DNA from: Sphingobacterium alimentarium
GTDB lineage: Bacteria; Bacteroidota; Bacteroidia; Sphingobacteriales; Sphingobacteriaceae
Length of the DNA: 64,000 nt
Direction of reading: 5' to 3'
Assembly (NCBI RefSeq): GCF_004342685.1
Contig: NZ_SMBZ01000010.1
Coordinates: 1-64,000, forward strand
Shown piece by piece: positions 10,095 to 59,923 of the stretch. The first letter of the stretch is position 1, and every line of letters starts with the position of its first letter. The notes under the pieces are model-generated. The model saw only the letters and a list, made by a program, of their open reading frames with translations. It made no database searches and had not been told where the DNA came from. The position numbers were made by a program, and so were the translations under genes.

Positions 10095-10107
10095 TAACTA
10101 ATAATTA

Positions 10108-40627: not shown

Positions 40628-40649
40628 GTTCAATAGGTACAATAAAAAA

Positions 40650-40671
40650 AACCACTATACGCATAGTGGTT
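40650..40671. terminator. Bidirectional intrinsic terminator
   Basis: A 9-bp stem (40650-40658 with 40663-40671, loop ACGC) flanked by seven As and six Ts. It serves mutS2 and its small partner on plus, and the D15 operon on minus. Confidence 0.9.
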
Positions 40672-40683
40672 TTTTATTTGAGA

Positions 40684-43257
40684 TTAAAAGGACATACCGA
40701 TTCGGATATAAGGTAAGGTCGCTTCCTTACTGACACCGACGGCAGCCTGTATGATAAATAATTCCGCAGGAATAAAATAAATTCCTCCTCCATAGCCCAT
40801 ATGCCATGTTTCTGACTTTTCGCTGGTATGCCACACGCGACCAATATCATAGAAACCTAAGATGCCAAAAGTCGCTGGGAATAAGTAAGAATTAAAGGAG
40901 AGAAGCTTGACTCTGGTGTCGAAATTATTGTAAACAGCCGTTTTACCCGTAAATCGGTTGGAATTAAAACCCCGTAAACTGTTTTCTCCGCCAATACGCG
41001 CGTGTTGAAAAAAATAGGGGTTGCCCCATACAGCTTGCACACCCGACCTATTCGCAATCGTTACTGTACTGTCTGCAAATGTATGGTAAGCGGAGAAGCT
41101 ACTTTCTAAAGAAGTATATTGTCTTTGTTCGCCCCCGATCTGTGACTGCCAATTTAATTTACTTTGAAAATAAATACCTTTTTTAGCAAAATCTTCTTGA
41201 TCCCTGCTATCGTATTTTAATCCCAGAGATGCTCCTGTAAAGAATTTATTGCCATAAATATTTTCATCCGGATTTACTTGGTCATAATCTTCGAAGAAAT
41301 TATCCTCATTATACTCACTTGAACTGTGGTAAAATTGCGACATATTGCCATACTGAATGCGGAATGCTGATGATATAGCTTTTTCCAATAGAATATGTGC
41401 GTTGACTACGTCATACCTATTCCGATAGTATTCGATGCCACGGCTTCTTCGGTGTTGAAATTCCGTTTCATTACCATAGCCAAAGAAATTGCTTTGATTG
41501 CGTGGTCCTAAAGAATTTAATCCAATTTTTAAATCTTGGTTATCAAATACTTCTTTAAATATTCCTTCGTAATCTAATATAAAGGATTGGCGACCAGTGA
41601 GATATCTGGCAGAGAATGTATGCTTTTCTGCAAAAGGGGATTTGCGAAATCCTTGGTTTTCGATTAAATAACCGAGCCCGATTATTAAACCCCGATCCAC
41701 ACCGTAATTAAGATTTACAAAGGCTCCTTTGCGATCGTATTTGTAATTATAATAATCGTAAGCGTGCACAGCAGAATCGTTTTTTAGACGATATTTTACT
41801 TTATTGTTTAAGGCTACGGCATTGGTTGTGGGATCTTTTGACTCATAAAGGAAAATTCGGTTTTGGTTCGGGAATTCGGCGCTATGTGCGTATTTATCAA
41901 ATTTACTGCCTCCGATTATTCTTATTGTAATGTTGGATTTTTGATCTCCCGATAAGATATATTCATCCTCACCCGCAATCCCGTAGATACGTAATTCCTC
42001 AGTTTCCTCTGGGTAGAAAGTTCTTTTGTACAATCTTCTTCCTTCCGAGCCGTCTTTTTTCTTATTGCGTACTTCGACTTCGACCATACCTTGGGGCAAC
42101 GTTCTTACATAAATAAACTCGTTTTTTTCGGAAAGCGGAATGTCCACTACCTTGGCTAAGGAATGATAGTAGCTCATGCCTGATTCCAACAATTCATTTC
42201 TCCTGGATTGGATATTCAGTTCTATATCATTGGCGCTTAGTACAGCGATGGTATCGGGCATGGCAAGCATCGCCTGATGAATCAGCGAATCTGTAAGGAT
42301 AGTTTGGAAAGCTTTAATTCCTTGTTCCCAATCGGAGCTATCCAATTGATTTAAAAAATAACGATCAAAATGCCGTTGGTTAAAATTCCAATGTGAGACA
42401 TTTCGGATTTTAGGTCCGAAGGGCTGCAAATGGGCTTTTAGCCATTGATAGGAAAGCAAGGTCGGAAATACGCCGGAAGTTTTGTAGTACACTTTATCCC
42501 GATCGCGAGGCACTGGCGAATAGAGTGTTTCGCCCTTATCTTTATTTGGTGACCAACGCCAATTATCCTCGTGCCGATCCCAGTCGCCCAACACAAAATC
42601 CAATAATCTTGCTTTCAACGTTAATTTTTGGTCTACTTGATCGTCATTGTCCTCTAGAGTTTTGCGAATAACCTTGGCTGTATTATCCGTTTTTTCGTCC
42701 TCATCGGGTGTGCGTGGCTCAAATATATAGGCTCTATTTTTGAATATCTCGCGGTATTCACCCAGCTGTGGGTCATCTTTTACATATACCAAATTGGGAA
42801 CAGCATGAGGGATTTTTAACGCTTTATTAAATGTTGGGACAGTCAGAGCTCCAAAGGGATGCGCAATGGAAATTTGATCCTGCACAATGTCTTTCGCAAT
42901 AGTCTGCCGCAGCGCAGGAGGGAGGCTCCGTTCGGGAAACTTCTGAATAGAACGTAAAACCCATTCTCTACCCGAAGCATCCTGCAAGCGTAAGGATTGG
43001 GTTTGCATACCACCACCTAATTTGATGACTTCGAGACCACCTTTCTCCGTAGATATATCCAATACACGCATTTTGACCGGCGTATTATACAGTTGGCGAT
43101 AACTATCACCAAGCCAAAAACGATGAAATGCACCTACTTGGTCGTATTCTGACGCTATAATAGCCGTAATACTGTCCGTCTGTTGCGCCACAACAGGCAA
43201 CGTTCCATTAGCAACAAGGAGAAAAAGAAGGCACAAGTGGAGTATGCATTTTTTCAT
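40684..43257 (-). CDS. Outer-membrane D15/BamA-like barrel with kinase-like periplasmic region
   Basis: 857 residues. The signal peptide ends PVVAQQ (about 25). The C-terminal 350 residues are a bacterial surface antigen (Omp85/D15-like) barrel, with LGLKYDSRDQEDF, RIGGENSLRGF and a terminal Phe. Residues about 75-260 carry a glycine-rich KLGGGMQTQSLRL, a following EWVLRSIQK strand, then LLDFVLGDWDRHEDNW (217-233) and VPRDRDKVY (249-257). These resemble the Gly loop, beta-3 lysine, catalytic DRHxxN and metal-binding acid of FAM20/HipA/PI3K-like atypical kinases. In other Bacteroidota such barrels may be fused to a calcineurin phosphoesterase; here that enzyme is a separate gene of the same operon. 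Last gene of a five-gene operon. Confidence 0.85.
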   Translation of the reverse strand: MKKCILHLCLLFLLVANGTLPVVAQQTDSITAIIASEYDQVGAFHRFWLGDSYRQLYNTPVKMRVLDISTEKGGLEVIKLGGGMQTQSLRLQDASGREWVLRSIQKFPERSLPPALRQTIAKDIVQDQISIAHPFGALTVPTFNKALKIPHAVPNLVYVKDDPQLGEYREIFKNRAYIFEPRTPDEDEKTDNTAKVIRKTLEDNDDQVDQKLTLKARLLDFVLGDWDRHEDNWRWSPNKDKGETLYSPVPRDRDKVYYKTSGVFPTLLSYQWLKAHLQPFGPKIRNVSHWNFNQRHFDRYFLNQLDSSDWEQGIKAFQTILTDSLIHQAMLAMPDTIAVLSANDIELNIQSRRNELLESGMSYYHSLAKVVDIPLSEKNEFIYVRTLPQGMVEVEVRNKKKDGSEGRRLYKRTFYPEETEELRIYGIAGEDEYILSGDQKSNITIRIIGGSKFDKYAHSAEFPNQNRIFLYESKDPTTNAVALNNKVKYRLKNDSAVHAYDYYNYKYDRKGAFVNLNYGVDRGLIIGLGYLIENQGFRKSPFAEKHTFSARYLTGRQSFILDYEGIFKEVFDNQDLKIGLNSLGPRNQSNFFGYGNETEFQHRRSRGIEYYRNRYDVVNAHILLEKAISSAFRIQYGNMSQFYHSSSEYNEDNFFEDYDQVNPDENIYGNKFFTGASLGLKYDSRDQEDFAKKGIYFQSKLNWQSQIGGEQRQYTSLESSFSAYHTFADSTVTIANRSGVQAVWGNPYFFQHARIGGENSLRGFNSNRFTGKTAVYNNFDTRVKLLSFNSYLFPATFGILGFYDIGRVWHTSEKSETWHMGYGGGIYFIPAELFIIQAAVGVSKEATLPYIRIGMSF

Positions 43258-43266: not shown

Positions 43267-45579
43267 TTATTTAACCTTAACGCGTATAGCTCGCAACTCG
43301 CTGACACCTTGCAATTCTTCCAAGGTATGAAATTCAAAGTTTTTCTCGATAAGTCCCATAGTAGCTATTTCATTAAGGTTGCCTACAATGGAAGATGTGA
43401 TACTTTCATTGCTAAAAACAATGGCTATGGTATCAGGCTGCACAAGTCTTTCTTTGGTATTCTCGATTAGAGCTTTATCTATACGCTTTTTAATAATTTG
43501 ATATCTGATATTATAACCTCCCTCCACATCAAAACGCTTTTCATCTTCACGAAAACTAATGCTGATTTTATCGGGATGCACAAATAATAGTTGTGTTGTC
43601 CGCAGCGCAATGGACAATTCCGCAGAAAGCTCCTTGGTCTTTTGAATGATGCGCACCATGGACAAAATCTGCTTTTTACGAATCTCATGGAGCATTTCTA
43701 TCTTAAAAGTAGTCGTAGGTGTAATCGACTGACCTATATATCCATCATACTCAATGCCATCGGTGCGGATTGTTTCGAAATAGCTCGGAAAAATTTCTTG
43801 TATCTCCGTGTTCAGCACGTCGAATTCCTCTTTGATCGCGCGAGTCAATGTAGATAATGACTTTTCAAATGGATCATTGCCAGGTTCGATGATTTGTGCA
43901 TTATGGTCTTCAATCTGACGGATAAGATGTTTCAAATCGTCGTCCATAACGCAGCTCGAACGCACTTGATCTAATAAAACTGGAATTTCGGTTTCTAAAA
44001 ACTCCCGAATGCTGACAATATTTTTCTCAACCCCGTTATCCTTTACACAAGTGAATATTTTTTCTATGTACTCTCTAAAGCCAAGAAACACTGTTGTACC
44101 ATCGCGTTGTGCTAGGTTATTGAGTAATTCTTGAATGTAGGACAGATGTTGAATAAGAACCTGTTTGTAAGATAAATTACGAATACGCGTGGAATCTTTG
44201 ATATCTACCGCCCCGTAAATGGGGTACACATCTTTAAAGGCAATTTTTTCCAAAATCAATTTCGAATTTTCATCCTCGTTATTCATCTCACCCAAATACG
44301 AAACGGCGACTTCATTGAACCGCCATTGCAATGCAGGTTGAATGGATGTATAATTTTCTAAGATGATTTTGTTTAGCTGATTCTTCAGGAATGCAACAAA
44401 ATCATTTGACAGCTGAGCAAAATGCGGTAAATAAGGTTTGAGTTTTAAAGCATCATTTTTATTGAAATTATTGTTTGAAGCATAAATTTCAATGAAACCT
44501 ACAAAACGGTCTCTATGAAATAGGGGTAATCCTAAGTAATTGGTGATACCTTTTGATTTTAAAATATCTATAAAAACCTGATCATCTATATTCAGATCAC
44601 TTTCAATTCCATACGTCCATATTATGGGTTTGCTCAGATAGGAGTAGATGCTGCACGAATTGCAGGCTTTCGAAAAGTTTAGGTATTGCCCTAATAAGAT
44701 CGATTCTTTGGTATATTCACTTTCTGATATTGGAAATCCGCTGATTTCAAAGATGGGTAGAAAGAAATACTTAATATCATTTTTCCGGATGATGGATTTG
44801 AAAATATTATTTATTTCAATCTCTAATTCTTTTTTGTTTTTCAGATTGAAATTTTTAATAATATTTTGAATACGCCTCAAAATGAATTCTTTATCTCTGT
44901 TGATAAAATGGAGGATACTTATACCTTCAAATTTGAATTTTGTTAAATCCACTACAGAAAGGGCTTTAATTAGCAAATCCATGGAGTCGTATGCGTTCTC
45001 TTTTATCGCTTTCAGATCCAATTTCGGAAGCTTTCCCTCATACTGAATATCGACATATGAAAAATCTACCTGCAATTCGTAGTATTGGCTAAAACCTTCC
45101 CGTTTGGACTCGATAATATATTCCTTTTCTAACGTATTGATGCCGTAAAACCGTTCTAGAATATGGTAATACAATATCTTGTTTGTAATTATCTGATAAT
45201 CTTGACTATCCTCAAGATCCAAGATTTCTAAATCTGAAGCCAATAGCTCCTGTAAAGAACTTGTACTGTAGATTAATTTATTAGGAATGGGTTCTGCAAA
45301 GGCGATATATTCATCACGAGAGGATTTTAAGCTACCCGATAAGTGCCCAAGAATTTCAAAAATTGCCTTTAATTCCTCTTCGGCGTGCGACAGATCTATG
45401 TTTGTTGGAGAATGGATTAAGTTTAATAATTCCTTTGCCAATATTTTAGCGCCATAAGGTGTATCCTCACTCAGGGCAGTTATTTTATCAATAATGGGCC
45501 GAAATGACGTCACTTGAGCTATGCCAGTGGCGTCAAGATTGAGATTTAAATTAATATTTTCGAACGGCTGCAAAATCAT
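43267..45579 (-). CDS. GAF-domain protein of unknown function
   Basis: 770 residues, no signal peptide, cytoplasmic. A GAF-like segment at about 290-400 contains GLPLFHRDRFVGFIEIYAS. It is followed at about 451-468 by VYPIYGAVDIKDSTRIRN, which recalls the D-I-x-x-S-T metal-binding strand of class III cyclases. A second acidic partner is not evident, so cyclase activity is only a guess. The C-terminal 200 residues are mixed helical and end with a FSNESITSSIVGNL region. It is fourth in the operon led by the HD-membrane protein, 24 bases after the phosphoesterase gene and 9 bases before the D15 gene. Confidence 0.8.
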   Translation of the reverse strand: MILQPFENINLNLNLDATGIAQVTSFRPIIDKITALSEDTPYGAKILAKELLNLIHSPTNIDLSHAEEELKAIFEILGHLSGSLKSSRDEYIAFAEPIPNKLIYSTSSLQELLASDLEILDLEDSQDYQIITNKILYYHILERFYGINTLEKEYIIESKREGFSQYYELQVDFSYVDIQYEGKLPKLDLKAIKENAYDSMDLLIKALSVVDLTKFKFEGISILHFINRDKEFILRRIQNIIKNFNLKNKKELEIEINNIFKSIIRKNDIKYFFLPIFEISGFPISESEYTKESILLGQYLNFSKACNSCSIYSYLSKPIIWTYGIESDLNIDDQVFIDILKSKGITNYLGLPLFHRDRFVGFIEIYASNNNFNKNDALKLKPYLPHFAQLSNDFVAFLKNQLNKIILENYTSIQPALQWRFNEVAVSYLGEMNNEDENSKLILEKIAFKDVYPIYGAVDIKDSTRIRNLSYKQVLIQHLSYIQELLNNLAQRDGTTVFLGFREYIEKIFTCVKDNGVEKNIVSIREFLETEIPVLLDQVRSSCVMDDDLKHLIRQIEDHNAQIIEPGNDPFEKSLSTLTRAIKEEFDVLNTEIQEIFPSYFETIRTDGIEYDGYIGQSITPTTTFKIEMLHEIRKKQILSMVRIIQKTKELSAELSIALRTTQLLFVHPDKISISFREDEKRFDVEGGYNIRYQIIKKRIDKALIENTKERLVQPDTIAIVFSNESITSSIVGNLNEIATMGLIEKNFEFHTLEELQGVSELRAIRVKVK

Positions 45580-45603: not shown

Positions 45604-46683
45604 CTAGTTGAGGTTGGGTAAATTAACTTCATAGCTCTTAGTAGTTTGGTTATTCAATACTGTATAGAAGGAAACAAGAAGTTGACCATTGTCTAGACAG
45701 TCAATGACACAAAATCCCTGTTTATTAGAAACAAATTGCTGTGTGGGATGCTTAGCGATATGTGAGCGTTTAGCTCCCGAACCGGTTACAATTTGAATGA
45801 AATTATTATCTTGAATCATTTGTAAGCCATGATCATGACCCGCCACAAAAATTAGATTCGAAAAATCTTTAGTGGCGCGCGTAATATCATTTATGAGCTC
45901 GCGATAAAGCGGATGTGTGGCATCTTCTGCCGAATAGAAAATGGTGGTCCGTATCAGGGGATACAATGACCCTAATACAGGCAACGGCAGATACATATTA
46001 TTGTTTATTCGTGTCAACGGGAAAATATGGTCTTTCCAAGTGATATTTTTGCCGTGTTCACCATAGGAGCGCATAGGATGATGTGATAAAATAAGTACAT
46101 GTTTGTCCTTATTTTGCTCTACTTCTTGCCTTATTACTTGTAAGAATTCTTGTCTAATTGAGCTGGAAAGGGCAGAATCGGGGTTGGAATGATGAGGGAA
46201 TAACCAATACTCGCTATCATAAACAAGGATTCTAGCCGAATTCGTGACATCCTCAGCTATTACATCCGCTGATCCGGCTTTAGGTAGGAACCTTAGATTT
46301 TTTATACCTCTGCCTTTAATAAATTCTTCCTGTGCTTTTACCTTCTCCAGTCCCATACTTCGGGATTTATCCCAATCGTGGTTACCAGCCACGAATGTCA
46401 CGGGGATATTCCGCTCGGTAAAGGGTAGGTATTGGGATTCTAATATGTCGATGCTTTCTTGGATTTCACTTCTGTCCAAAGCCATTCCGTAGGGATAGAT
46501 ATTGTCCCCTAGAAAGTATACGGATGATTTTTCGGGAATAATAAGTTCTACAGCCTTCTGTATAGCCGCTCTTTGGCCCGCATTGACCTCACCCGCATCA
46601 CCGAATAATATTAATCGATGTTCTACCTCTTGGCCAAGAGCATTAAACCAAATAAAAAGAAATACAGGGAATAAGGCTCTCAT
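45604..46683 (-). CDS. Exported calcineurin-like metallophosphoesterase
   Basis: 359 residues with a signal peptide ending NALGQE. All metal motifs are present in order: LFGDAG (DxG, lacking DxH), FLGDNIYPYG (GDN), VAGNHDWD (GNHD), LSHHPMRSYG and VAGHDHGLQ (GHxH). It hydrolyses phospho-monoesters or diesters in the periplasm. Its ATG overlaps the stop of the beta-propeller gene by one base. In related genomes the same domain may be the N terminus of the D15 barrel protein encoded two genes downstream. Confidence 0.92.
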   Translation of the reverse strand: MRALFPVFLFIWFNALGQEVEHRLILFGDAGEVNAGQRAAIQKAVELIIPEKSSVYFLGDNIYPYGMALDRSEIQESIDILESQYLPFTERNIPVTFVAGNHDWDKSRSMGLEKVKAQEEFIKGRGIKNLRFLPKAGSADVIAEDVTNSARILVYDSEYWLFPHHSNPDSALSSSIRQEFLQVIRQEVEQNKDKHVLILSHHPMRSYGEHGKNITWKDHIFPLTRINNNMYLPLPVLGSLYPLIRTTIFYSAEDATHPLYRELINDITRATKDFSNLIFVAGHDHGLQMIQDNNFIQIVTGSGAKRSHIAKHPTQQFVSNKQGFCVIDCLDNGQLLVSFYTVLNNQTTKSYEVNLPNLN

Positions 46684-47564
46684 TATTTTTGCATTTGAAA
46701 TTTATATAAAGACGCGGAAGATGTGTTTCCCATTTCACTACTGATATATAAATGGCCTTCTTTACTTATAGCCATACCTTCGGGCTGCTCAAACTGGCTT
46801 CGTTTGAAAGGTATGACCTTTTTGATATGGAAATCCAAATCCGCAACGATCAAAACTTTGTCAATGGAAGATAGGATATACCATTCATTGCTATGCTGAT
46901 TATAGGTTATGGCAGCAGGTTTTAGTTGAGTAGAAAGCGTGTTATCCAAAGACTTTAGCTGTTGCAGGTCTATCGCAAACGAACTCGGCGTATTTAACGA
47001 GCCGTCAGGTAGTACCCCAAACTTGTAGCCTGTCAGCGTAGCTTTGGATTTATCTACTTTGCATTCTTTACAAAGTATGAGCAGGCTATTATCTTTCGCT
47101 TGGTAGGCTAGAGATTCATATTCACCTTTCGGAACCACATTTTTTATAATCTTAACGCTGTTTTTATCTCGATTATGTTCAAATGGAAAATAATAGATAT
47201 CACCATCACTTCTTAGCACATAGATATATTTTCCATCTGTTGCGATGCCTTCGTAATCTCCATTTTTGCCAAAAGTGAATTCGTCAACAACCTTTTCGGT
47301 CGACAAATCATATGTGAATACTTTGCCATCTTCATCCTGAATCGCATACAGTAAATTGGAGTTGTCTGGGTGAAATGTAATGCCAGATATTTCATCCAAA
47401 TTAGAACTCAAATCGTATTTTTTGGAATTCGCTAAGTCATATACAAAATTAACCAAAAGGGCTGTCTGTTGGTTGGATTGTTGTTGTCCGTTACTGGCAT
47501 TTTGGCAAGAATACAAGATGTGAATAAGTACAGCTATGAGTAGGGTGAAGATGATGTTTTTCAT
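46683..47564 (-). CDS. SdiA-regulated-type beta-propeller lipoprotein
   Basis: 293 residues. A lipoprotein signal with lipobox ILYSC is followed by a low-complexity Gln/Asn stretch and a beta-propeller (PF06977 or phytase-like). Repeated motifs are SGITFHPDNSNLLYAIQDE, GDYEGIATDG, YESLAYQAKDN, PAAITYNQHSNEWYILS and PEGMAISKEGHLYISSE. Likely periplasmic or surface. It is the second gene of the operon. The family is uncharacterised; some propellers of this type hydrolyse phosphoesters, which would fit the adjacent phosphoesterase. Confidence 0.85.
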   Translation of the reverse strand: MKNIIFTLLIAVLIHILYSCQNASNGQQQSNQQTALLVNFVYDLANSKKYDLSSNLDEISGITFHPDNSNLLYAIQDEDGKVFTYDLSTEKVVDEFTFGKNGDYEGIATDGKYIYVLRSDGDIYYFPFEHNRDKNSVKIIKNVVPKGEYESLAYQAKDNSLLILCKECKVDKSKATLTGYKFGVLPDGSLNTPSSFAIDLQQLKSLDNTLSTQLKPAAITYNQHSNEWYILSSIDKVLIVADLDFHIKKVIPFKRSQFEQPEGMAISKEGHLYISSEMGNTSSASLYKFQMQK

Positions 47565-47572: not shown

Positions 47573-48724
47573 TTATTTACCTAAAACTACCGCTATGCTA
47601 AAAGCAAAAACAGATACAACTAATCCGATCATAAAAATGGTATATGCATAGCGCAGAAGCACATATTTACGACCCAAGGATACACCTTGAGAATATACAT
47701 CTTTTGTCAACATTCCGTAAAGTAAATCACTGTTTTTCATTGTTCTATTCATTCCTTCTTCGTAGTCCGAGAAGCTTGATTTATAGAAATTTCCAAAGAA
47801 CAATAAATTCACTTTTCTTCGTTCTACATTCTGTACATCGAAATGTCCATTAGGGATTTTTGGAATAGTCGCCAGAATAGCAAAAATCATCGTCAACACC
47901 ACACTGACCATCAATAAAATCGTAGGTATGAGTAGATGGGTTTCATTATCGAGTCTTCGCAAAAGCACAGTCACTACAAGCGACAGTATAATGGAGTTTA
48001 CAGTCAAGAGGATATTCGCTTTATTGTCGGCCATATCGCTCAATCGCTGGTTATTCGAAGAAGTGATTCGAAACATAGTTTCGATTCCCCGTCCTGGCTT
48101 TTTGGCCTCGCTGTTTTTATCCTTTGCTTTTTTATCTTCTTGAAGAAGATTTTGCAGATTTTCTTTTTTCTTTTCTTCCAATTTGTTTTTAGCGTAATCG
48201 GTATGGTAATTATGTTCTTCCAAAAGCTTTATAGTCATACTGCGCCATAGTCCTTTTCCTATTTTCTGCTTGTGTGTCGCTTCAATTTCCTGATGTATCA
48301 ATTTGCTTTTCTCTTTAAAATCAGCGGTACCAAGATGAAACAAATCCGCATCACACAATATGGATTCCACCAAATTTGAAGGTGATTGAGGCATTTTGGT
48401 GGCTAGAATACAAGATTTGACGCGCTGAATAACAGCAGCAGACACATTTTCCTTAGACAAGAATTCCTCCGCAAAAACAGCACTTCTCGATTCATGTTCC
48501 TGACTTCCGCCATTGACATACCCTAAGTCATGAAAATAGGCAGCAGAAGTGACGATAAAATCTTCTTCTTCCGGAAGATTATAATGTCTTGACATCTCCT
48601 GGACAGCCTCTACCACACGAGCAGTATGATCGACACCGTGATAGCAATATGATGCTGAATCATGGGTATAAAAGCTTTGAATATAAGCCTTAATTTTTTG
48701 TAATATTTCGCTATAGGGTATCAT
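47573..48724 (-). CDS. HD phosphohydrolase fused to Pycsar-effector-type membrane domain
   Basis: 383 residues. The N-terminal HD domain (about 20-180) has His29 and His33, HD at 65-66 (AAYFHDLGY) and CDADLFH near 124-130. A charged linker (about 182-212) follows. The C-terminal DUF5706/PycTM-like domain has FRITSSNNQRLSDMADNKAN (219-237), then membrane segments at about 238-258, 264-286 and 357-380. In Pycsar defence the membrane effector opens the inner membrane after binding a cyclic pyrimidine nucleotide. HD fusions of this domain are chromosomal in many Bacteroidota and have no proven role. It leads the five-gene operon; no nucleotide cyclase gene is recognised with confidence nearby. 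Confidence 0.88.
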   Translation of the reverse strand: MIPYSEILQKIKAYIQSFYTHDSASYCYHGVDHTARVVEAVQEMSRHYNLPEEEDFIVTSAAYFHDLGYVNGGSQEHESRSAVFAEEFLSKENVSAAVIQRVKSCILATKMPQSPSNLVESILCDADLFHLGTADFKEKSKLIHQEIEATHKQKIGKGLWRSMTIKLLEEHNYHTDYAKNKLEEKKKENLQNLLQEDKKAKDKNSEAKKPGRGIETMFRITSSNNQRLSDMADNKANILLTVNSIILSLVVTVLLRRLDNETHLLIPTILLMVSVVLTMIFAILATIPKIPNGHFDVQNVERRKVNLLFFGNFYKSSFSDYEEGMNRTMKNSDLLYGMLTKDVYSQGVSLGRKYVLLRYAYTIFMIGLVVSVFAFSIAVVLGK

Positions 48725-48922
48725 ATACTTATACTAATATTTGAAATGGAAAGATTTATTATAGGTTTCTTATGGTAGACCGTTAATATTATCCAATTTA
48801 CAAATATTTATGCGAAAATAATCTTAAAACATGACTTGCATGTCATTGTATTTTCAAGATTATGAAGGGAAAAGGTAGGAGGGTAGCTCAGCGCAAAAGA
48901 GAATTAGATGCCGAATCACCTA

Positions 48923-51693: not shown

Positions 51694-52007
51694 TAAGTAG
51701 ATGTAGTTTGTATATCAATATTACAATAAAAAATCTTTTTATACAATAAATTTTCAGTAAAGATACATCAAAGATTAAAAACAGGAAAAACGGTTGTAAA
51801 TAAAGGCTTTACAGCCGTTTTATGATTTTTTGGTAATGTGGTAAAAAGCAGGAAAAAGCAACAATTAGCAAAAGTAAGGTTACTAAAACGTTACTTTTAA
51901 ACATCGGAAACAATCGATTCAAAATACTGTATTTCAGCTTTTTGCGTAATTCTTCATATTGTTCCGTGGCTCACATAAGTTTAATTTTATCATTAAGAAT
52001 TGTGAGT
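51694..52007. other. Boundary region of the mobile element
   Basis: 314 AT-rich bases between the chromosomal response regulator and the integrase. The element end (att site) should lie here. No duplicated core can be recognised because the other end is outside the window. GTATTTCAGC at 51929-51938 resembles the CTnDOT-type core GTAnnTTTGC at 8 of 10 positions, which is weak evidence only. Confidence 0.5.
51786..51822. terminator. Hairpin near the element boundary
   Basis: A stem of about 15 bp with one G-T/A-G mismatch zone (51786-51800 with 51808-51822) flanked by As and Ts. It has the form of an intrinsic terminator insulating chromosome and element. Confidence 0.6.
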
Positions 52008-53258
52008 ATGGAAACGACAAAAAAATCAACATTTAAGGTGCTTTTCTACCTTAAAAAGAACGCCCCGAAGAAGAACGGAAAAGTTACGGTTATGTGCAGG
52101 GTTACCGTAAACGGTAAACAGTCAGCATTCAGTACCAAGTTGGATATTTCTGCATCAAATTGGGATTTGAAGTACGGCAGGGTTTTAGGTAAAAGCCGAG
52201 AAGCCCAGGACACAAACAGCAAACTTGACAAAATTCGTTCGGGTATCGAGGAATGTTATTCCAAAATCTTGAAAAACGAGGGGGCTGTAAACAGTGCTAA
52301 GCTTAAAAATGCTTTTCTTGGTATGGAAAGCGGAGAGCTTACCTTTTTCAAATTCTATGAACAGTTCCTGTCCGACTATGAAAAAAAGGTAAACAGCGGA
52401 CTTCGGGTAAATGGCACATGCAGTAAATACAAAATACTTTTAAAACACCTGCGAAATTTTGCACTTACAAAATACGGTTATTCCGATGTGTCCTTTAACG
52501 ACCTTACACCTTATTTTGTACAGGACTTTGATTATTATCTACGTGACGACCAAAGTTTAACACACAATACCATTTGGCTGTATATGATTGGATTTACCAC
52601 GCTTTGCCGATTGGCAATGAGCAGAAAGCATCTTGCTTTTAATCCGTTCAGCGAGTATAAGAATACTAAAAAGGATAAAGACCGTGGTTATTTGTTGCGG
52701 AACGAGTTGGAACAGCTTGTAACATTCAACTGTGAGAAAAAGAAAGATGAGTTGGTTAAAGATCTGTTTGTTTTCAGTTGCTTTACAGGTCTTTCCTATT
52801 CGGATATGAAAGGACTTAAAAACAGCAATATTCAGGAGTTTTTTGACGGTAACCAGTGGATTATTGTACGCAGAAAAAAGACAGCTACATCGTCAAACGT
52901 GATGCTGTTGGATATTCCAAAAATGATTATTGAGAAATATGTAGGATTTTCAAAGGACGGCAAGGTTTTTCCTGTTCCGTCTAACAGCTACTGCAACGAT
53001 AGATTAAGTGCAATATCCCAACAAATCGACTGCTTGAAAGAAAAGAAAGTAACCTTTCATTTGGCACGCCATACGTTTGCCACCTTGTTTTTGAGCGAGG
53101 GCGTTCCGTTGGAGAGTTTGAGCAAGATGTTAGGGCATAAGAATATTGCCACCACACAGATTTACGCCAAGATACTCAACGAGAAAGTCGGAAAGGATAT
53201 GCAAAAGGTTTCACATAAATTTAAGGGTATGGAACGCTCTTTTGTTTCGCAACTCTGA
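52008..53258 (+). CDS. Tyrosine integrase, IntDOT-like
   Basis: 416 residues from the ATG at 52008 (an in-frame TTG at 51942 is less likely). The N-terminal arm-binding and SAM-like domains (about 1-215) precede the catalytic domain. Catalytic residues visible are Lys near 291, His351-x-x-Arg354 (HLARH), His377 (LGHKN) and the nucleophile Tyr386. The first arginine of the classical set is replaced by Ser263 in TGLSYSD, as known for the CTnDOT integrase. It integrates and excises the element that starts here. A 12-bp hairpin terminator follows. Confidence 0.93.
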   Translation: METTKKSTFKVLFYLKKNAPKKNGKVTVMCRVTVNGKQSAFSTKLDISASNWDLKYGRVLGKSREAQDTNSKLDKIRSGIEECYSKILKNEGAVNSAKLKNAFLGMESGELTFFKFYEQFLSDYEKKVNSGLRVNGTCSKYKILLKHLRNFALTKYGYSDVSFNDLTPYFVQDFDYYLRDDQSLTHNTIWLYMIGFTTLCRLAMSRKHLAFNPFSEYKNTKKDKDRGYLLRNELEQLVTFNCEKKKDELVKDLFVFSCFTGLSYSDMKGLKNSNIQEFFDGNQWIIVRRKKTATSSNVMLLDIPKMIIEKYVGFSKDGKVFPVPSNSYCNDRLSAISQQIDCLKEKKVTFHLARHTFATLFLSEGVPLESLSKMLGHKNIATTQIYAKILNEKVGKDMQKVSHKFKGMERSFVSQL

Positions 53259-53280
53259 AACCAATTTAAAGCGATTAAAG

Positions 53281-53310
53281 AAAGGCAATGCAAGAAACTG
53301 CATTGCCTTT
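53281..53310 (+). terminator. Terminator of the integrase gene
   Basis: A perfect 12-bp stem (53281-53292 with 53299-53310, loop AGAAAC), followed by TTTG and further Ts. 23 bases after the integrase stop. Confidence 0.85.
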
Positions 53311-53343
53311 TTTGTATTTTTGAAGTCAATAAAACAACAAAAT

Positions 53344-54153
53344 ATGATTGAACAATTTTCACAAAAGGCACAAGAAGAATTAAAATCTTATGTTTATATT
53401 CTAATAGACCCACGAGATAATAAAATATTCTATGTTGGAAAAGGTTATGGGAATCGTGTTTTTTTTCATATTAATGAAGCGATATTCAACCCAAGCGGAA
53501 CTGAAAAATTAGAGATTATTAGAGCGATTAAATTAGAAAATCTAAAAGTAAAACACTTTATAGTTAGACACGGATTAGAAGAAAATGAAGCGCTAATAGT
53601 TGAATCTGTTTTAATTGATTTTTTAACTTTTAAGGATTTTGCGGAGATTGCGAAAATTTCAAATATTGTTGCAGGACATTATTCATTTAATCAAGGTATT
53701 AAAACTGTTAATGAGTGTGAAATACTTTACAATTGTGAAGTATTAAAAAACGAAGATATTAAGCATAACATTTTAGTAATCAATATAAACAAAACATACG
53801 ATAATAAACGAAAAAAGAAAAGTGAGAACCCTATTTATGACAGACCAAACATTTATGAGGCAACCAGAGGTTGGTGGGTATTAGACAGAAACAGAGCAGA
53901 AAATTCAGATTTTGTTTTGGCAGAATATAAAGGCGTAATAAGAGCGGTATTTAAACCTGAAAAATGGGTTCAAGATATTGAAAATAGAGGTGTAAAAAGA
54001 TGGGGCTTTGAAGGTTCAAAAGTTACTTCAAAAGAAATTCTTGATATATATATGAATAAAGAAGTTCCTAAAATTAGAGGAATGGCAAATCCAATTCGTT
54101 ATTTTGAAAAAATACTCGTCACCAACAAGGGGTTTGCAAATGACGAGGTTTAA
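53344..54153 (+). CDS. LEM-3-like GIY-YIG nuclease domain protein
   Basis: 269 residues from the ATG at 53344. The longer open frame to 53146 overlaps the integrase and its terminator and is not used. The N-terminal GIY-YIG-like motif is YVYILIDP...IFYVGKGYGNR (about 16-40), with Arg and a later Glu in EENEALIVES. The C-terminal part (about 150-265) is a separate lysine-rich region with WWVLDRNRAE. The DNA is much more AT-rich than the chromosomal neighbours. Its position just behind the integrase marks it as cargo; an anti-phage or DNA-damage role is possible but not shown. Confidence 0.85.
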   Translation: MIEQFSQKAQEELKSYVYILIDPRDNKIFYVGKGYGNRVFFHINEAIFNPSGTEKLEIIRAIKLENLKVKHFIVRHGLEENEALIVESVLIDFLTFKDFAEIAKISNIVAGHYSFNQGIKTVNECEILYNCEVLKNEDIKHNILVININKTYDNKRKKKSENPIYDRPNIYEATRGWWVLDRNRAENSDFVLAEYKGVIRAVFKPEKWVQDIENRGVKRWGFEGSKVTSKEILDIYMNKEVPKIRGMANPIRYFEKILVTNKGFANDEV

Positions 54154-54156
54154 TCG

Positions 54157-54489
54157 CTAATGCTGATAATTATCTTCCAATACTTTTACAATATCACTTT
54201 CACGGAAAAGAATTTTCCTTTCGAGCTTGATAAAAGGTATCAGTCCGTCATCCCTGTACTGTTGCAACGTTCGTTTGCTGATGTGTAACATCTCGCAAAC
54301 CTGTTCGCCTGATAGGTATATTTCCCCTTTTAGTAATGGGCGGAAATATTCTCTGATATACAACAGTTCATTTTTTATGCCTACCACAGCTTCGAGCAAG
54401 GCAAGCATATCTTCGTTTGAATTTCCAATCTGTTTCATCTGTTCTTTTATTTGTTTTTTAATGGTCAGATGGAGCCTTTCAGGGTTCAT
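54157..54489 (-). CDS. Excisionase-like HTH_17 protein, second of pair
   Basis: 110 residues from the ATG at 54489. A helical N-terminal region (about 1-50) is followed by the MerR/excisionase-type winged helix EQVCEMLHISKRTLQQYRDDG (about 60-82) and a FRESDIVKVLE tail. A longer frame up to 54663 only shadows the upstream gene. The ATG overlaps the stop of the upstream HTH gene (ATGA), so the pair is coupled. Such genes near the integrase in Bacteroidota elements control excision or transfer. Confidence 0.88.
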   Translation of the reverse strand: MNPERLHLTIKKQIKEQMKQIGNSNEDMLALLEAVVGIKNELLYIREYFRPLLKGEIYLSGEQVCEMLHISKRTLQQYRDDGLIPFIKLERKILFRESDIVKVLEDNYQH

Positions 54490-54782
54490 TTCTTTTGCTT
54501 TTTTAATGGTCGCTCTCCCTGCATAAGTAACTCCACTTCGGATAATCTGAAATAAGTTTTCCGATTGATTTGCGTTGCCCTGAGAATGCCTTTCGCTCTG
54601 TATGTCTGCAAGGTTCTTTTGCTGATATTGAGGAGTTGGCAGGCTTCCTGCTGGTCGAGCCATTTCGTTGCCTGTTGCAATGCTTTGTAGGGTGCAGTGA
54701 TTTCCTCAATCATATTGGAAACTTCCTTTACTTCCTTGTGCAATGCTTTCAAAATCTGAATGTCTAAAACTGTTATTTCCAT
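54486..54782 (-). CDS. Excisionase-like HTH_17 protein, first of pair
   Basis: 98 residues from the ATG at 54782; an in-frame alternative start at 54830 would give 114. A coiled N-terminal region is followed by the HTH QEACQLLNISKRTLQTYRAKG (about 43-64) and the wing YFRLSEVELLMQ. It is homologous to the next gene and likely arose by duplication. An iteron array at 54838-54877 lies 55 bases upstream of the chosen start and may be its own control site. Confidence 0.88.
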   Translation of the reverse strand: MEITVLDIQILKALHKEVKEVSNMIEEITAPYKALQQATKWLDQQEACQLLNISKRTLQTYRAKGILRATQINRKTYFRLSEVELLMQGERPLKKQKK

Positions 54783-54837
54783 ATCTGCATCATTTAAACC
54801 TCGAAAATAAAAGCTATTCACATAGATCATTGTATTG

Positions 54838-54877
54838 TTGTAGTCAAAGGTTGCATTTGGCGTTCAGATGCTAAATA
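54838..54877. repeat. TGGC iteron array 0 (degenerate)
   Basis: Four 10-base units, TTGTAGTCAA, AGGTTGCATT, TGGCGTTCAG and ATGCTAAATA. Unit 3 is nearly identical to unit 3 of the other arrays and the remaining units are diverged. It lies upstream of the HTH pair. Confidence 0.5.
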
Positions 54878-54882
54878 CTCGA

Positions 54883-55293
54883 CTATAATCCCAACTTTGG
54901 TTTCTTGTTTTTTTGGTAAGTCTGTTGCATTTTGTTTGATTTGTCCATTTTTAGAGCAGGCTTCTTATTGGTCTGCACGGTTTGACTTTTTTCATCGCTT
55001 TTGAAATCCGAATGTATAACTGTTTTTGTCGCACCTATTATGCTTTCAGGTTCGGCAGTCTGTTTTTGTTGTTCAGTACGTTTGCCCCCAAAGAGCCTTC
55101 CCAGTCCCAGACCTTTTGTGTGCATGAATTGACGCCTTAAGTTGGCTATGAAATTGGAAATCGGGTCGCTGTTCTTATCGACCTGCATAAAAGGTGTGTT
55201 CTTTTTTTGCTCGGATTGTTCTTTATCTTTCCGCTCTTTGTCGGTAATTACTTTTTGTGCCATAGATTCAAAATTTCCCCCAATGTAAGCCAT
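54883..55293 (-). CDS. Conserved element protein, highly charged, unknown function
   Basis: 136 residues (ATG at 55293; Met11 is an alternative start). It is rich in Lys, Gln and Thr with little hydrophobic content. A short conserved-looking core SNFIANLRRQFMHTKGLGLGRLFGG-type basic segment lies in the middle, and the tail is repetitive KKP/NKK. It is probably disordered and may bind nucleic acid or a partner. An iteron array lies 22 bases upstream of the start. No function is recognised. Confidence 0.65.
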   Translation of the reverse strand: MAYIGGNFESMAQKVITDKERKDKEQSEQKKNTPFMQVDKNSDPISNFIANLRRQFMHTKGLGLGRLFGGKRTEQQKQTAEPESIIGATKTVIHSDFKSDEKSQTVQTNKKPALKMDKSNKMQQTYQKNKKPKLGL

Positions 55294-55315
55294 AATAGAT
55301 TACTTCTTTTACCTT

Positions 55316-55355
55316 TGGCATTCAGTGGCAGTTTTTGGCGTTCATTGGCATTACA
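55316..55355. repeat. TGGC iteron array 1
   Basis: Four exact TGGC units starting at 55316, 55326, 55336 and 55346, each 10 bp apart: TGGCATTCAG, TGGCAGTTTT, TGGCGTTCAT, TGGCATTACA. The cleanest copy. It lies 22 bases before the start of the 54883-55293 gene on the minus strand. Confidence 0.8.
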
Positions 55356-56038
55356 AATGCATTTTAATCCTCAAAACACTTTAATTTTTCACGCCTATTT
55401 CCACTGCACATTAAAGAGTTTTGGACGGATAGGGAAAAGCATAACAAAAATATCCACCGCTTCTTAGCTGAACATATTTTCTGTTATCCTTTCTGTGGCT
55501 TTCAGAGCCACTAGGATTTAAACAGGTATTAATCCGCTTTTCATAAGCGGAGAGATTGTAGTGAAGATATTTCCAAACAAAACGGATAAAAAGGCAGCTA
55601 AGTTGGAATGGGCAACCCCACGCACTAGCCACCCAAAAGCTTACGGCATAATGAAAAAGAAAACATCAAATTCTTTTTTCTTTTTCACCCTTCGGGACTT
55701 ATTCCGTTTCCTTTTGGTTCTGCATTGCCCATTCTGTTTATCTGCTTTCTTTTTTTTCTCTTTTTTTGTTTTGGAAATATTTTTTTAGAGGGTTTTACGG
55801 GTATATACAATCAGTTGAGATGCACAATACGACATGTGTTCCTGAAGGATATGTCGTGACTTCTTTTTCTTGTATAAGTTGCGGAGCAAGAAAAAGAAGC
55901 AAAAAGAACACCGCTTTATTGATTTTGGATTTTATATATTTCCTAAATTTGTTGTGTCATTGACGAGTGCATAAGCATAAAATAAATACGTAATGCCTGT
56001 ATTTTTGAGTCACCTGTCGTTTTACTAAAACAAACTGC
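55356..56038. other. Long noncoding stretch with clustered hairpins
   Basis: About 680 bases without a supported gene. Hairpins: GTGGCT/AGCCAC (55495-55511), TCCGCTT/AAGCGGA (55533-55551), CGACAT/ATGTCG (55830-55856) and a 13-bp stem at 55860-55872 with 55887-55899. An open frame of 73 codons on the minus strand (55411-55632) has no support beyond length. The region might hold a regulatory leader or transfer-related structure. Confidence 0.5.
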
Positions 56039-56959
56039 ATGAAAAAATTAAATTATATTTTATTAATTCTACTACTTACTTCTTGTTATTCACAAAAAAA
56101 TCAAAAAGCATCCAAAGAAAATTTAAGAATTATTGATATCGGCACAAGCCAACTTTCGATTCTTAATAAATTTAAAAACTCTAATTTACTTGAAAGAAAT
56201 CAGGTTCTCCTCGACTCAATTTATAAGCCAAATAAAAAGTTTTGGAATGGTTATCTCGGAGATGAAGAAGTATTTTTAGATTGGATTAATGAAAAAGGAA
56301 TTAATCAGATTGATAGTTGGAATAAAAGTTCGCAAATTATAAACCCTGACCTTTTGACTTCAAAATTAAATGAAACTGCAATTGCAATGTATAAATTTAC
56401 AGGTCACTTTGCAAAAGGTGAATGGAATATACTATATGGTCCCGCCTGGGCAGATTTAGGTGGTTTTGATGATGGAACTATGTTAATTGATTTAGCACAT
56501 AAATCAAACAAAAATGCGGAGAGAATCATCAGGCTTTATCCACACGAATTAAATCATCAAATTTACTCTAATACATTAAAAACACAGGGAAATACAGTCT
56601 TGCATAGAATCATAGACGAAGGTTTTGCTACTTATGTCAGTTACCTCTATCACAGAAAAAAATATTCTATTGCCCAAGAACTGATGTACTCAGAAGAAGA
56701 CTATCGATTTTGTACCGAAAATGAAAATGAACTTTTGAGTTTGTTAAAAGAAAATTATTACAAAGAAGACGAATCGTTGAGCAGGAAATTTGCTGATAGA
56801 GGTTATAAATTTAAAGAGAACTATCCCGATGCAATCGGATATTATTTAGGATTCCGAATAATTGAAGAATTTATAAAACAAAACGGGAAAGATTCGTGGA
56901 GAAAAATATATGTAATGGAACCTCTTGAAGTGTTAAACAAAAGTAAAATATTGAAGTGA
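56039..56959 (+). CDS. Exported lipoprotein with HExxH zinc-protease motif
   Basis: 306 residues. The lipoprotein signal is LLLTSC (about 11-16). A gluzincin-type site is His169-Glu-Leu-Asn-His173 in LYPHELNHQIY, with Glu194 in IIDEGFATYVSYLY as probable third ligand, spaced as in DUF2268-like peptidases. It is presumably active at the periplasmic or outer surface; the substrate is unknown. The gene is very AT-rich and stands alone in plus orientation among minus-strand genes, typical of cargo acquired by the element. Confidence 0.8.
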   Translation: MKKLNYILLILLLTSCYSQKNQKASKENLRIIDIGTSQLSILNKFKNSNLLERNQVLLDSIYKPNKKFWNGYLGDEEVFLDWINEKGINQIDSWNKSSQIINPDLLTSKLNETAIAMYKFTGHFAKGEWNILYGPAWADLGGFDDGTMLIDLAHKSNKNAERIIRLYPHELNHQIYSNTLKTQGNTVLHRIIDEGFATYVSYLYHRKKYSIAQELMYSEEDYRFCTENENELLSLLKENYYKEDESLSRKFADRGYKFKENYPDAIGYYLGFRIIEEFIKQNGKDSWRKIYVMEPLEVLNKSKILK

Positions 56960-57043
56960 AAAACGACAGATGATAAGGCTTTGTTGATTTTGTGCAGAAC
57001 AGTGGTAGAAACAATCTGGAACTAACAGATATTTTTTGAGGAT

Positions 57044-57358
57044 TTATATCCAATGGTAAGGTTTATCCTTACGATTCAGGTAACAGTACATTTCTTCCTT
57101 TTTGAGTTCAGGGAAGAACCTCAAAGCCTTTTCAATGGCGTAATTAGGTAAGAAGTAGATTTCGTCACGGATAGCCGTAATTACTTTGTCATGACCATAA
57201 AAACGAATCAGTTCATCAATTTCATTCTGTCCGCCACGCTCTATGATACGGGCAATAATAGTCTTATAGGCTTTCCTAAAGTCCATTGCTTCAATGTCGA
57301 AATCCCAAAAAAACACACGGTCAAAATCTGGAGCAACCTTGTTGTTTTTTTTATCCAT
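57044..57358 (-). CDS. DUF6922 protein, second tandem copy
   Basis: 104 residues. The core IIARIIERGGQNEIDELIRFYG, DKVITAIRDEIYFLPNYAIEKA and the end KKEEMYCYLNRKDKPYHWI are almost identical to the preceding paralogue. The N-terminal 20 residues differ. In Bacteroidota DUF6922 genes sit beside AbiEii-type nucleotidyltransferases, which suggests an antitoxin or partner role; this is inferred from context. It lies 18 bases downstream of copy one. Confidence 0.8.
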   Translation of the reverse strand: MDKKNNKVAPDFDRVFFWDFDIEAMDFRKAYKTIIARIIERGGQNEIDELIRFYGHDKVITAIRDEIYFLPNYAIEKALRFFPELKKEEMYCYLNRKDKPYHWI

Positions 57359-57376
57359 AGTGATCCATCCATTAAT

Positions 57377-57694
57377 TTATATCCAATGGTAAGGCTTGTC
57401 CTTACGGTTCAGGTAACAGTACATTTCTTCTTTTTTTAATTCTGGAAAGAATTTTAAAGCGTCTTCAATTGCGTAATTTGGAAGAAAGTGGATTTCGTCA
57501 CGAACCGCTGTAATAACTTTTTTATATCCATAGAAGCGGACAATCTCATCAATTTCATCCTGTCCGCCACGTTCTATAATTCGTGCGATGACAGACAGAT
57601 AGGCTTTTTGCCAATCCAGTTTATCTACATTGGTGTCCCAAAAGAATTTGGGATGCAGATTAGGTTTCAGGATACCTTTTATTGCCTTTTCCAT
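57377..57694 (-). CDS. DUF6922 protein, first tandem copy
   Basis: 105 residues with the same core as the copy at 57044-57358, about 80 percent identical over the last 80 residues by eye. A WDTNVDKLDWQKAY segment (about 19-32) corresponds to WDFDIEAMDFRKAY in the other copy. It lies 32 bases after the AbiEii-type gene in the same transcript. The duplication may allow one copy to diverge. No HTH motif is obvious. Confidence 0.8.
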   Translation of the reverse strand: MEKAIKGILKPNLHPKFFWDTNVDKLDWQKAYLSVIARIIERGGQDEIDEIVRFYGYKKVITAVRDEIHFLPNYAIEDALKFFPELKKEEMYCYLNRKDKPYHWI

Positions 57695-57726
57695 ACTATA
57701 AATTTAATGATTTTTATCGAATTGAA

Positions 57727-58416
57727 CTACAATCCCCGACCTTTTTTAGGAGGGTTATTTCTATTTTTCAGCTTTGGTATTGTTCCAAATTGCAATTCTG
57801 GGTTAGCTACGGCTTTCGATAATCGCCCGGATATTTTTTCCCAATTTTTCTCTTTCCCTTTAATCATCGATACGTCATATTCCTTTTCGATATTTCCAAA
57901 ATAAGATAGCGCATGAGCTGCCCAATAAACGTTTCCTGAATACTTCTTCTCATAAGCTTGGAGATAATGCTTTAGTGTTTTTTCATTGAGAAGAAAATAC
58001 ATATCTACAAAATCTTTTAATCTTTTTCCGCTCTGAAAAACAGCATGGATTTTCATTGCACCTATATCATCATTGGAAATCATCCTGACTCCGTCTTTTT
58101 CTTCTACGGGATTTAACAGCGGATACTTGTGGGTGATCAGATCAACTTTTATATCGTTGATATAGGTAAGTACCGTATTATTATCAAGTCTGCTCTGTTT
58201 TAGTTCAGCACCATATGCATCGTGTAAATACCTAATCATTGTTCTTGAATCAAAATCTTTGGTAGTGAACAGGTCTATATCAATACTTAATCGATGCCCC
58301 AATCGTAAAGCGAGTGCAGTTCCACCGACCAGTACAAAATCTTTCAACATTTCATCTTTCATCAGCTTTTGGAGAAGTTCCCACATCTCACTGCTTACTG
58401 TTTCTTTGTATAACAT
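57727..58416 (-). CDS. AbiEii/AbiGii-family nucleotidyltransferase toxin
   Basis: 229 residues. The nucleotidyltransferase motif has Gly31-Gly32 in VLVGGTALALRLG and the metal-binding Asp46-x-Asp48 in SIDIDLFT, with a later NDIKVDLITH strand. GAMKIHAVFQSGKRLKDFVDMYFL is the family's helical signature. Relatives are toxins of type IV abortive-infection systems that modify tRNA or other targets. The DUF6922 copies downstream are the probable partners. A hairpin (58422-58454) and an iteron array lie upstream. Confidence 0.9.
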   Translation of the reverse strand: MLYKETVSSEMWELLQKLMKDEMLKDFVLVGGTALALRLGHRLSIDIDLFTTKDFDSRTMIRYLHDAYGAELKQSRLDNNTVLTYINDIKVDLITHKYPLLNPVEEKDGVRMISNDDIGAMKIHAVFQSGKRLKDFVDMYFLLNEKTLKHYLQAYEKKYSGNVYWAAHALSYFGNIEKEYDVSMIKGKEKNWEKISGRLSKAVANPELQFGTIPKLKNRNNPPKKGRGL

Positions 58417-58421
58417 AATTT

Positions 58422-58454
58422 TTCGTTTTTCGGGAATTTAATCCCGAAAACGAA
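58422..58454 (-). promoter_or_regulatory. Hairpin between iteron array and AbiEii start
   Basis: A near-perfect stem (58422-58435 with 58442-58454, one bulged base, 6-base loop), six bases before the ATG on the minus strand. It could be an operator palindrome or a leader hairpin limiting translation of the toxin-like gene. Confidence 0.5.
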
Positions 58455-58468
58455 GCCTTTGCCCAAAG

Positions 58469-58508
58469 TGGCAGTCAGTGGCACTGTTTGGCTTTCATTG
58501 TCTACTTT
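58469..58508. repeat. TGGC iteron array 2
   Basis: Units start at 58469, 58479, 58489 and 58499: TGGCAGTCAG, TGGCACTGTT, TGGCTTTCAT, TGTCTACTTT. It lies 52 bases upstream of the AbiEii start on the minus strand. Confidence 0.75.
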
Positions 58509-58557
58509 GTACCTGTTTTTACTCCGATCGGTCGAATAGATAAGGCTGAATAACCGT

Positions 58558-58971
58558 CTAAAAAATAGGTTTGTTCTTTTCGTTGAAGCTTTCTGTTATC
58601 TGCTGTTCAAATTCCCCGAAATGATGATCCAGTAAATTACTTAGATACGCATAGATGGTAATGTTGTCATCCCCGATAACCTGAATGATACGTGAGAGCT
58701 TTTTATGGTGGTCGGGATTGATATAGACCGATTTCCCATGCCGTGCGGTGCTTTTCACTTCCCTGAAGAATATTTCTTCGTATTCAGCCGTGCTGATTCC
58801 TTTGGTACGGCTACGCTCTCTTTTGACAGGTTTTTCTTTTTCGGACTGTTCAATGGGTTTTTCTTCCTCGGGAATATTAAAACCTTCCTTTCTTACCCCA
58901 TCGACCATTAGGTTCATTAACGCATTTTCATCCAGATCGGGCGTTACTTTTTTTTCTTTGTCTCTGTCCAT
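58558..58971 (-). CDS. DUF3408 conjugal-transfer-associated protein
   Basis: 137 residues from ATG 58971; a start at 59016 is also open. The N-terminal half is acidic and charged, with MDRDKEKK and EEEKPIEQSEKEKPVKRERSRTK-type low-complexity sequence. The C-terminal half is the DUF3408 domain, with YEEIFFREV, GKSVYINPDHHKKLSRIIQVIG and ITIYAYLSNLLDHHFGEF. Such proteins accompany mobA/mobB in Bacteroidota conjugative transposons (TraB/ParB-partner group); the exact role is unsettled. Confidence 0.85.
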   Translation of the reverse strand: MDRDKEKKVTPDLDENALMNLMVDGVRKEGFNIPEEEKPIEQSEKEKPVKRERSRTKGISTAEYEEIFFREVKSTARHGKSVYINPDHHKKLSRIIQVIGDDNITIYAYLSNLLDHHFGEFEQQITESFNEKNKPIF

Positions 58972-59083
58972 GATTTTTATGTTTATGTGTCTGTAAATTT
59001 TGTTGCCCGTTCTCAAATAATATTGTGCAAATGCAATTTTTATTGTCTTAGCTCCTGTGTGTCAAAGCATCGGCTACCATTAC

Positions 59084-59096
59084 AGTGCATTGCACT
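59084..59096. repeat. 13-base palindrome in the mob upstream region
   Basis: AGTGCA-T-TGCACT, perfect dyad in the 510-base gap between the divergent DUF3408 and mobA genes. Possible operator; could be chance. Confidence 0.3.
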
Positions 59097-59213
59097 ACTG
59101 CTTGTCTTTTTAACCATTGGGAGCAACGTAATGCCGTTCTTGCGTTTTGCTGACTGTGCAGTTTGTTTATCGACGGGACAAATAAAAGGAGATATGTGCC
59201 AACTAAAAAAAAG

Positions 59214-59253
59214 TGGCACTCAAAGGCACTATTTGGCGTTCATTGTCCAGATT
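59214..59253. repeat. TGGC iteron array 3
   Basis: Units start at 59214, 59224, 59234 and 59244: TGGCACTCAA, AGGCACTATT, TGGCGTTCAT, TGTCCAGATT. It lies between the divergent DUF3408 gene and mobA, 242 and 231 bases from their starts. Confidence 0.75.
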
Positions 59254-59340
59254 GTAAATAGCTGTTATTCAAATACTCTTGTCGAAATTTGTATTTAAAG
59301 CGACTGATTTTTTCAGCTAACTCCAATCCGTTTGCAGAAC

Positions 59341-59484
59341 GGATTTTTCTGAACCCCTGTTCAGAGCAAGTTATCTCTTGAGGTCCTCGAAATGAATTTC
59401 GGCACCTCAAAAGCACTTGCCCTTGCAGGGGGCTAGAAACGGCTCCGAAGTCGCACGTTTATTAAAAATTAAAAATGGATTACT
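59341..59484. other. Candidate origin of transfer (oriT) upstream of mobA
   Basis: Directly before mobA, this stretch is GC-richer than its surroundings and has a small hairpin GAAC-CCCT-GTTC (59351-59362) and a two-part hairpin at 59380-59408 (GAGGT/ACCTC outer, CGAAAT/ATTTCG inner). GCACTTGCCCTTGCAGGGGG follows. In related elements oriT lies just upstream of the mob genes. The nick site is not identifiable by eye. Confidence 0.45.
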
Positions 59485-59919: not shown

Positions 59920-59923
59920 AAAT

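Follow-up and report, generated by a model that had tools for sequence, protein, structure and literature searches.

What is a kinase-like sequence doing in a protein of the bacterial outer membrane? The question is raised by a gene of Sphingobacterium alimentarium lying on a stretch of 64,000 nucleotides (hereafter the window), in which an initial annotation had noticed, by eye, kinase motifs upstream of an outer-membrane barrel. A kinase-shaped domain at this place is noteworthy, since one would not look for a kinase beyond the cytoplasm: the periplasm is generally regarded as devoid of ATP. The gene, its protein (P0001) and the parts discussed here are as follows:

40684..43257, minus strand: kinase-fold / Omp85 barrel protein of 857 aa (P0001), from the open reading frame and its translation
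42151..43113, minus strand: kinase-fold domain, residues ~49–369, from AlphaFold2 and Foldseek, replicated on a 34%-identical relative
42982..43032, minus strand: glycine-rich loop with its flanking strands, residues 76–92 (GGG81-83, Gln85-Thr86)
42940..42954, minus strand: Arg102 (beta3-lysine position) and Lys106
42868..42900, minus strand: putative helix C with the invariant Asp127 (helix 120–130 in the model)
42559..42585, minus strand: predicted catalytic loop DWDRHEDNW, residues 225–233 (Asp227 catalytic, Asn232 metal)
42496..42510, minus strand: PRDRD, residues 250–254, in which the predicted metal-binding (DFG-equivalent) aspartate is Asp252 or Asp254
41788..42150, minus strand: beta-rich domain linking the kinase fold to the barrel, residues ~370–490 (short strands in the model)
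40684..41691, minus strand: Omp85-type beta-barrel, residues ~523–857, from Pfam and from homology to a free-standing barrel gene at another locus (L197)

Judged from its sequence, the N terminus of P0001 resembles a signal peptide, with a cleavage site guessed at about residue 25. By its Pfam match (PF01103 at residues 607–827, 2.8e-10, above the cut-off), the C-terminal barrel belongs to the Omp85 superfamily, and it remained the sole match of P0001 in the Pfam, NCBIfam and PADLOC scans, NCBIfam adding none above the cut-off. The N-terminal half displayed no convincing Pfam family in any of 50 relatives; the kinase-fold domain is an unnamed family without a covering Pfam or NCBIfam model. 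Searches of open-licence articles turned up no kinase reported for Omp85 proteins or for the envelope of Bacteroidota, and no account of this domain.

The initial annotation proposed structure prediction followed by a fold search, and these gave a confident model in which the kinase fold is present. Indeed, the AlphaFold2 model of residues 25–501, built with 50 homologues, reached a pLDDT of 87.7 and a pTM of 0.88 with its elements in kinase order, and the model of a relative sharing 34% identity (L081) had a pLDDT of 82.8. Foldseek against the PDB returned ten matches at E <= 0.001 for the P0001 model, headed by CtkA (1.9e-5) and then PI4KIIa and RIO2, the other two being YihE and an ADP-complexed mycobacterial protein, and 27 at the same threshold for the L081 model, led by CtkA (1.5e-6), HipA and CotH (5jd9, 1.8e-4), with FAM20C at 2.7e-3. 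HipA reached 5.6e-5 and PI4KIIa 7.8e-5 in the searches with the two models. The search of viral models matched a phage protein resembling PI3/4K at 5.7e-8 and one of CotH type at 9.4e-4. TM-scores on CtkA were modest (0.53–0.55), and such values are common for atypical kinases. With two confident models whose best PDB matches are almost only kinases, these computations confirm, at the level of predicted structure, that residues ~49–369 of the barrel protein form a two-lobed kinase fold comprising a glycine loop, beta3, helix C, a catalytic loop and a metal-binding aspartate.

Conservation was examined on two scales, as the initial annotation had asked of the DRH motif. Six search patterns, run across all species with a single genome for each, left 80 seed loci, all of them in Bacteroidota. 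In the alignment of 50 homologues (34–76% identity), GGG81-83, R102, K106, D127, DWDRHED225-231, W233, D252 and D254 were invariant, in a set that is biased since one of the six patterns was the motif itself. A profile search then placed the domain in 146/395 species and 74/170 genera of Bacteroidota. Among 48 copies found with the profile and forming the phylum-wide sample of our neighbourhood survey, R102, K106, D127, E180, D225, D252 and D254 were each present in 48/48, D227 and H229 each in 47/48, and Gly81, Gly82 and Gly83 in 47/48, 48/48 and 42/48, respectively. The catalytic and metal-site aspartates are therefore computed to be essentially invariant, and this conservation excludes a motif match by chance.

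Most of what had been read by eye stood up to this comparison. LLDFVLGDWDRHEDNWRW and PRDRD are present where they had been placed (Asp227, Asn232 and Asp252), and the glycine-rich loop announced at residues ~80–92 corresponds to the strongly conserved GGG81-83, located between strands 76–81 and 88–92 of the P0001 model. The claim of a beta-3 strand carrying a lysine at residues 98–106 survived for the strand and failed for the lysine, as the invariant Arg102 occupies the lysine position and Lys106 comes shortly after the strand has ended. Similarly, the parallel drawn with the DRHxxN loop and metal-binding acid of atypical kinases was right about the catalytic and metal aspartates and needed correction for Asn232, which the window's protein has but which is Gln in 47/48 phylum-wide copies. 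Asn232 belongs to the window's own clade, comprising Sphingobacterium, Pedobacter and Dyadobacter; among the domains of the seed loci from this clade and neighbouring ones, 81/85 carry it. For the family as a whole, the motif is thus to be written DRHxx[QN]W and not DRHxxN, and the family departs from the beta3 lysine and catalytic-loop asparagine that typify active kinases, of which variants are known.

Ordinary kinases are less active when Arg replaces the beta3 lysine and Gln the catalytic Asn, and Arg102 and Gln232 probably make the chemistry of this family unusual. Because of these two departures, binding without catalysis is possible, and we give a minority chance, clearly below that of phosphotransfer, to a pseudokinase whose fold only binds a ligand (a nucleotide, polyphosphate or an inositol-phosphate-like compound) and regulates the phosphatase or the barrel. 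Such a reading would agree with both substitutions being found in almost all relatives and with the general expectation that there is no ATP outside the cytoplasm, but a strictness of 47–48/48 at Asp227, His229, Asp252 and Asp254 is not obviously needed for binding alone. At one locus (L175), the kinase domain is present in two free-standing copies, divergently arranged and each with a lipoprotein-type signal peptide, at 7433–9055 on the minus strand and 9192–10778 on the plus strand. One of this duplicated pair, reading GDWSRREDQW, is the single copy without Asp227, and the two look, from their motifs, like an active kinase beside a pseudokinase. A clearly degenerate copy speaks for the pseudokinase reading, but it sits divergently beside an intact one.

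Which known kinases are nearest was addressed by profile comparisons, in addition to the structural searches. CtkA, the best structural match, was also the sole PDB sequence-profile match up to E 10, weak (E 0.035) and in register on DRHxxNW / DRHNGNW, and it shares the DRHxxN loop. For CotH, that is, the exported spore-coat-type kinases, a profile-profile alignment against 30 Bacteroidota CotH kinases scored 30.9 over 222 columns when the maximum of 60 column shuffles was 21.9, and 32.1 against a 50-shuffle maximum of 22.9 with the family enlarged. In this alignment, GDWDRH and PRDRD fall on the CotH catalytic loop and metal motif (the IPWDxDxxF-type segment). CotH kinases (PF08757) share with the family a kinase fold in which an IP-D-x-D metal motif comes after an Asp-based catalytic loop, and a solved CotH structure is among the structural matches; however, they carry no barrel, the loop of the family is DRHxxQW rather than the CotH pattern, and none of 50 family members matched PF08757 in Pfam. 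The HipA_2 profile (PF20613) scored 27.2 and in register, Arg102 being aligned with the YVLK beta3 lysine and DWDRH with the DRT loop, but this similarity is suggestive only, since one of 50 shuffles reached 26.0 (the next 19.5), and no Pfam match to PF20613 was found in the 50 members. Kinship with HipA_C (PF07804) by sequence was rejected, its profile score of 17.2 lying within the shuffles and no Pfam match being obtained, whereas HipA itself remains alike by structural match. The family differs from CtkA and from HipA / HipA_2 in being barrel-linked, probably exported and without a Pfam match. FAM20 / Golgi casein kinase (FAM20C being a secretory-pathway kinase) and PI3K/PI4K also share a kinase fold with a DRH loop and appear among the structural matches, but more weakly than CtkA and without a match to a Pfam family model; membership in PI3_PI4_kinase was discarded, as no member was found in the 247 Bacteroidota genomes searched.

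In the light of these comparisons, we consider it very improbable that the motifs are coincidental and that what precedes the barrel is an ordinary Omp85 extension, POTRA-like or of another kind. It is true that they were first seen by eye, that no Pfam or NCBIfam kinase model reports the domain and that a 2014 survey (PMC4104836) filed the fused form of the family as an Omp85-metalloprotease. However, two models, two fold searches, the profile alignment and the conservation across the phylum agree on a kinase fold.

The genomic context places this kinase fold in one operon with a phosphatase. Five genes on the minus strand follow each other in the order HD-PycTM, SdiA-regulated propeller, metallophosphatase, GAF protein and kinase-Omp85, with gaps of 8, -1, 24 and 9 nt. 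The other four genes and the flanking signals are:

47573..48724, minus strand: membrane protein with HD and PycTM domains, which opens the operon (PF01966 1.7e-6, PF18967 1e-30)
46683..47564, minus strand: SdiA-regulated / phytase-like beta-propeller with a lipoprotein-like N terminus (PF06977 1.4e-10; PF13449 1.3e-4, below cut-off)
45604..46683, minus strand: calcineurin-like metallophosphatase with a signal-peptide-like start (PF00149 7e-10)
43267..45579, minus strand: 770-aa GAF-type protein (weak GAF match below cut-off; no other family)
40646..40675, minus strand: intrinsic terminator just past the kinase-Omp85 stop codon (13-pair stem, then a T run)
48758..48786, minus strand: weak promoter-like site upstream of the operon (10/12 matches), of a kind no commoner than chance in the region (28 found vs 31 expected)

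The operon with an exported phosphatase, as first described, is thus real, and in most surveyed relatives the association goes further, with phosphatase, kinase and barrel forming one polypeptide of ~1250 aa. The metallophosphatase of the window aligns with the N-terminal third of these fused relatives (up to 45% identity) and the kinase-barrel protein with the remainder; the two genes look like a split form of the fused proteins. At L197, the phosphatase (405 aa), the kinase (530 aa) and the barrel (400 aa) are three adjacent genes, and this kinase is 37% identical to residues 21–490 of P0001. Taken with the fused relatives, this split indicates computationally that the kinase domain is a discrete module, joined to phosphatase and barrel by fusion/fission. 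Heinz and Lithgow (2014; PMC4104836) described an Omp85-Metallo subfamily made of an Omp85 barrel with an N-terminal PF00149, read as a metalloprotease and conserved at the genus level; a term search of their paper found no mention of a kinase. From its architecture, we infer that this group is the fused family discussed here. There are differences between that description and ours: according to Pfam, PF00149 is a calcineurin-like phosphoesterase and not a metalloprotease, the distribution of the kinase domain given above is much broader than one genus, and in the window PF00149 belongs to a separate gene of the same operon and not to the polypeptide of the barrel.

The neighbourhood survey covered 46 loci, made up of the window and another 45, from ~25 families. 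Near the kinase, 33 of them have HD-PycTM, 24 the propeller, 12 the GAF protein, 11 PPK1 and 8 SixA, which shows on a broad scale that the neighbourhood is conserved. Where full-length HD-PycTM occurs, the kinase is also present in 50/51 genomes. HD-PycTM (47573–48724; L173–L218) matches PADLOC Pycsar-effector models (7e-16), but because the gene tracks the kinase operon we prefer another role to defence, and annotating such genes as defence by this one domain could be misleading. The GAF protein adjoins the kinase in 59/80 seed loci. It is conserved beside the kinase in Sphingobacteriaceae, and a class III cyclase-TPR protein holds a similar place elsewhere; a relationship between the two was considered, and profile comparison gave nothing. 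Note that a probable mobile element, judged from its sequence, lies near the operon at 51942–63789:

51942–53258: tyrosine recombinase
57727–58416: nucleotidyltransferase-like protein
59924–61186: relaxase-like protein
61315–63789: restriction-modification-like protein

PPK1 lies within ~9 kb of the kinase in the 11/46 loci against ~0.27 expected, a rough estimate that assumes 1.3 copies per 4.3-Mb genome; since related species are not independent, the formal P value is too favourable. PPK1 was also found in 35/80 seed loci, or about 34 if one with just a short partial match is discounted, in most cases placed right between HD-PycTM and the propeller, and the window itself contains none. Together with HD-PycTM and the phytase-like propeller, the PPK1 of many relatives suggests a role of the kinase operon in polyphosphate handling; what the gene positions show is an association of PPK1 with the kinase and not a shared substrate. 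PAP2 and CotH genes, located near the kinase in some genomes, fit a phosphate-chemistry locus. In addition, VTC polyphosphate-polymerase genes lie <= 6 kb from a CotH gene in 5/22 VTC-bearing Bacteroidota genomes (G062, G108, G055, G019 and G078), a possible second pairing of an exported kinase with polyphosphate, parallel to the kinase operon. The PPK1 neighbourhood and the unusual active site (Arg102 and Gln232) would also agree with a kinase fold devoted to other chemistry, such as nucleotidyl transfer, as performed by SelO with its kinase fold, or polyphosphate-chain transfer. We regard this as improbable, less so than coincidence and more so than a pseudokinase, and the closest relatives in our searches (CotH, HipA and CtkA) are phosphotransferases.

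Altogether, homology, structure prediction and gene order, from which we infer export, membrane side, catalysis, donor and acceptor alike, lead us to favour, with some confidence, an exported atypical-kinase domain that is held at the outer membrane, most likely on the periplasmic side, by an Omp85-type barrel and works there as a phosphotransferase. Phosphotransfer by the kinase-fold domain is thus the activity we think rather probable. In such a mechanism, Asp227 would activate the acceptor hydroxyl, a metal would be held by Asn/Gln232 and Asp252/254, and the donor phosphates by the glycine loop with Arg102/Lys106; the metallophosphatase, co-transcribed here and fused in most of the relatives surveyed, would then take the phosphate off again. 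That this metallophosphatase reverses the phosphorylation made by the kinase appears about evenly balanced. Outside the cytoplasm, polyphosphate or a released nucleotide may serve as donor instead of periplasmic ATP, and polyphosphate in particular is a tentative candidate that we would not bet on. Equally speculative is the complete picture, namely an outer-membrane kinase-phosphatase pair that uses polyphosphate (from operon-linked PPK1) in place of ATP and phosphorylates an envelope protein, lipid or glycan; if true, this would amount to a polyphosphate-driven cycle of extracytoplasmic phosphorylation.

With our findings, the outer membrane, an unexpected place for kinases, gains an unnamed kinase-fold family that is spread across the phylum, and the 'Omp85-Metallo' group of the 2014 survey a plausible function as an envelope kinase-phosphatase. 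Since relatives in Sphingobacterium and Pedobacter can be cultivated and carry the parts as separable genes, it becomes directly testable whether phosphoryl transfer takes place outside the bacterial cytoplasm, and from which donor.
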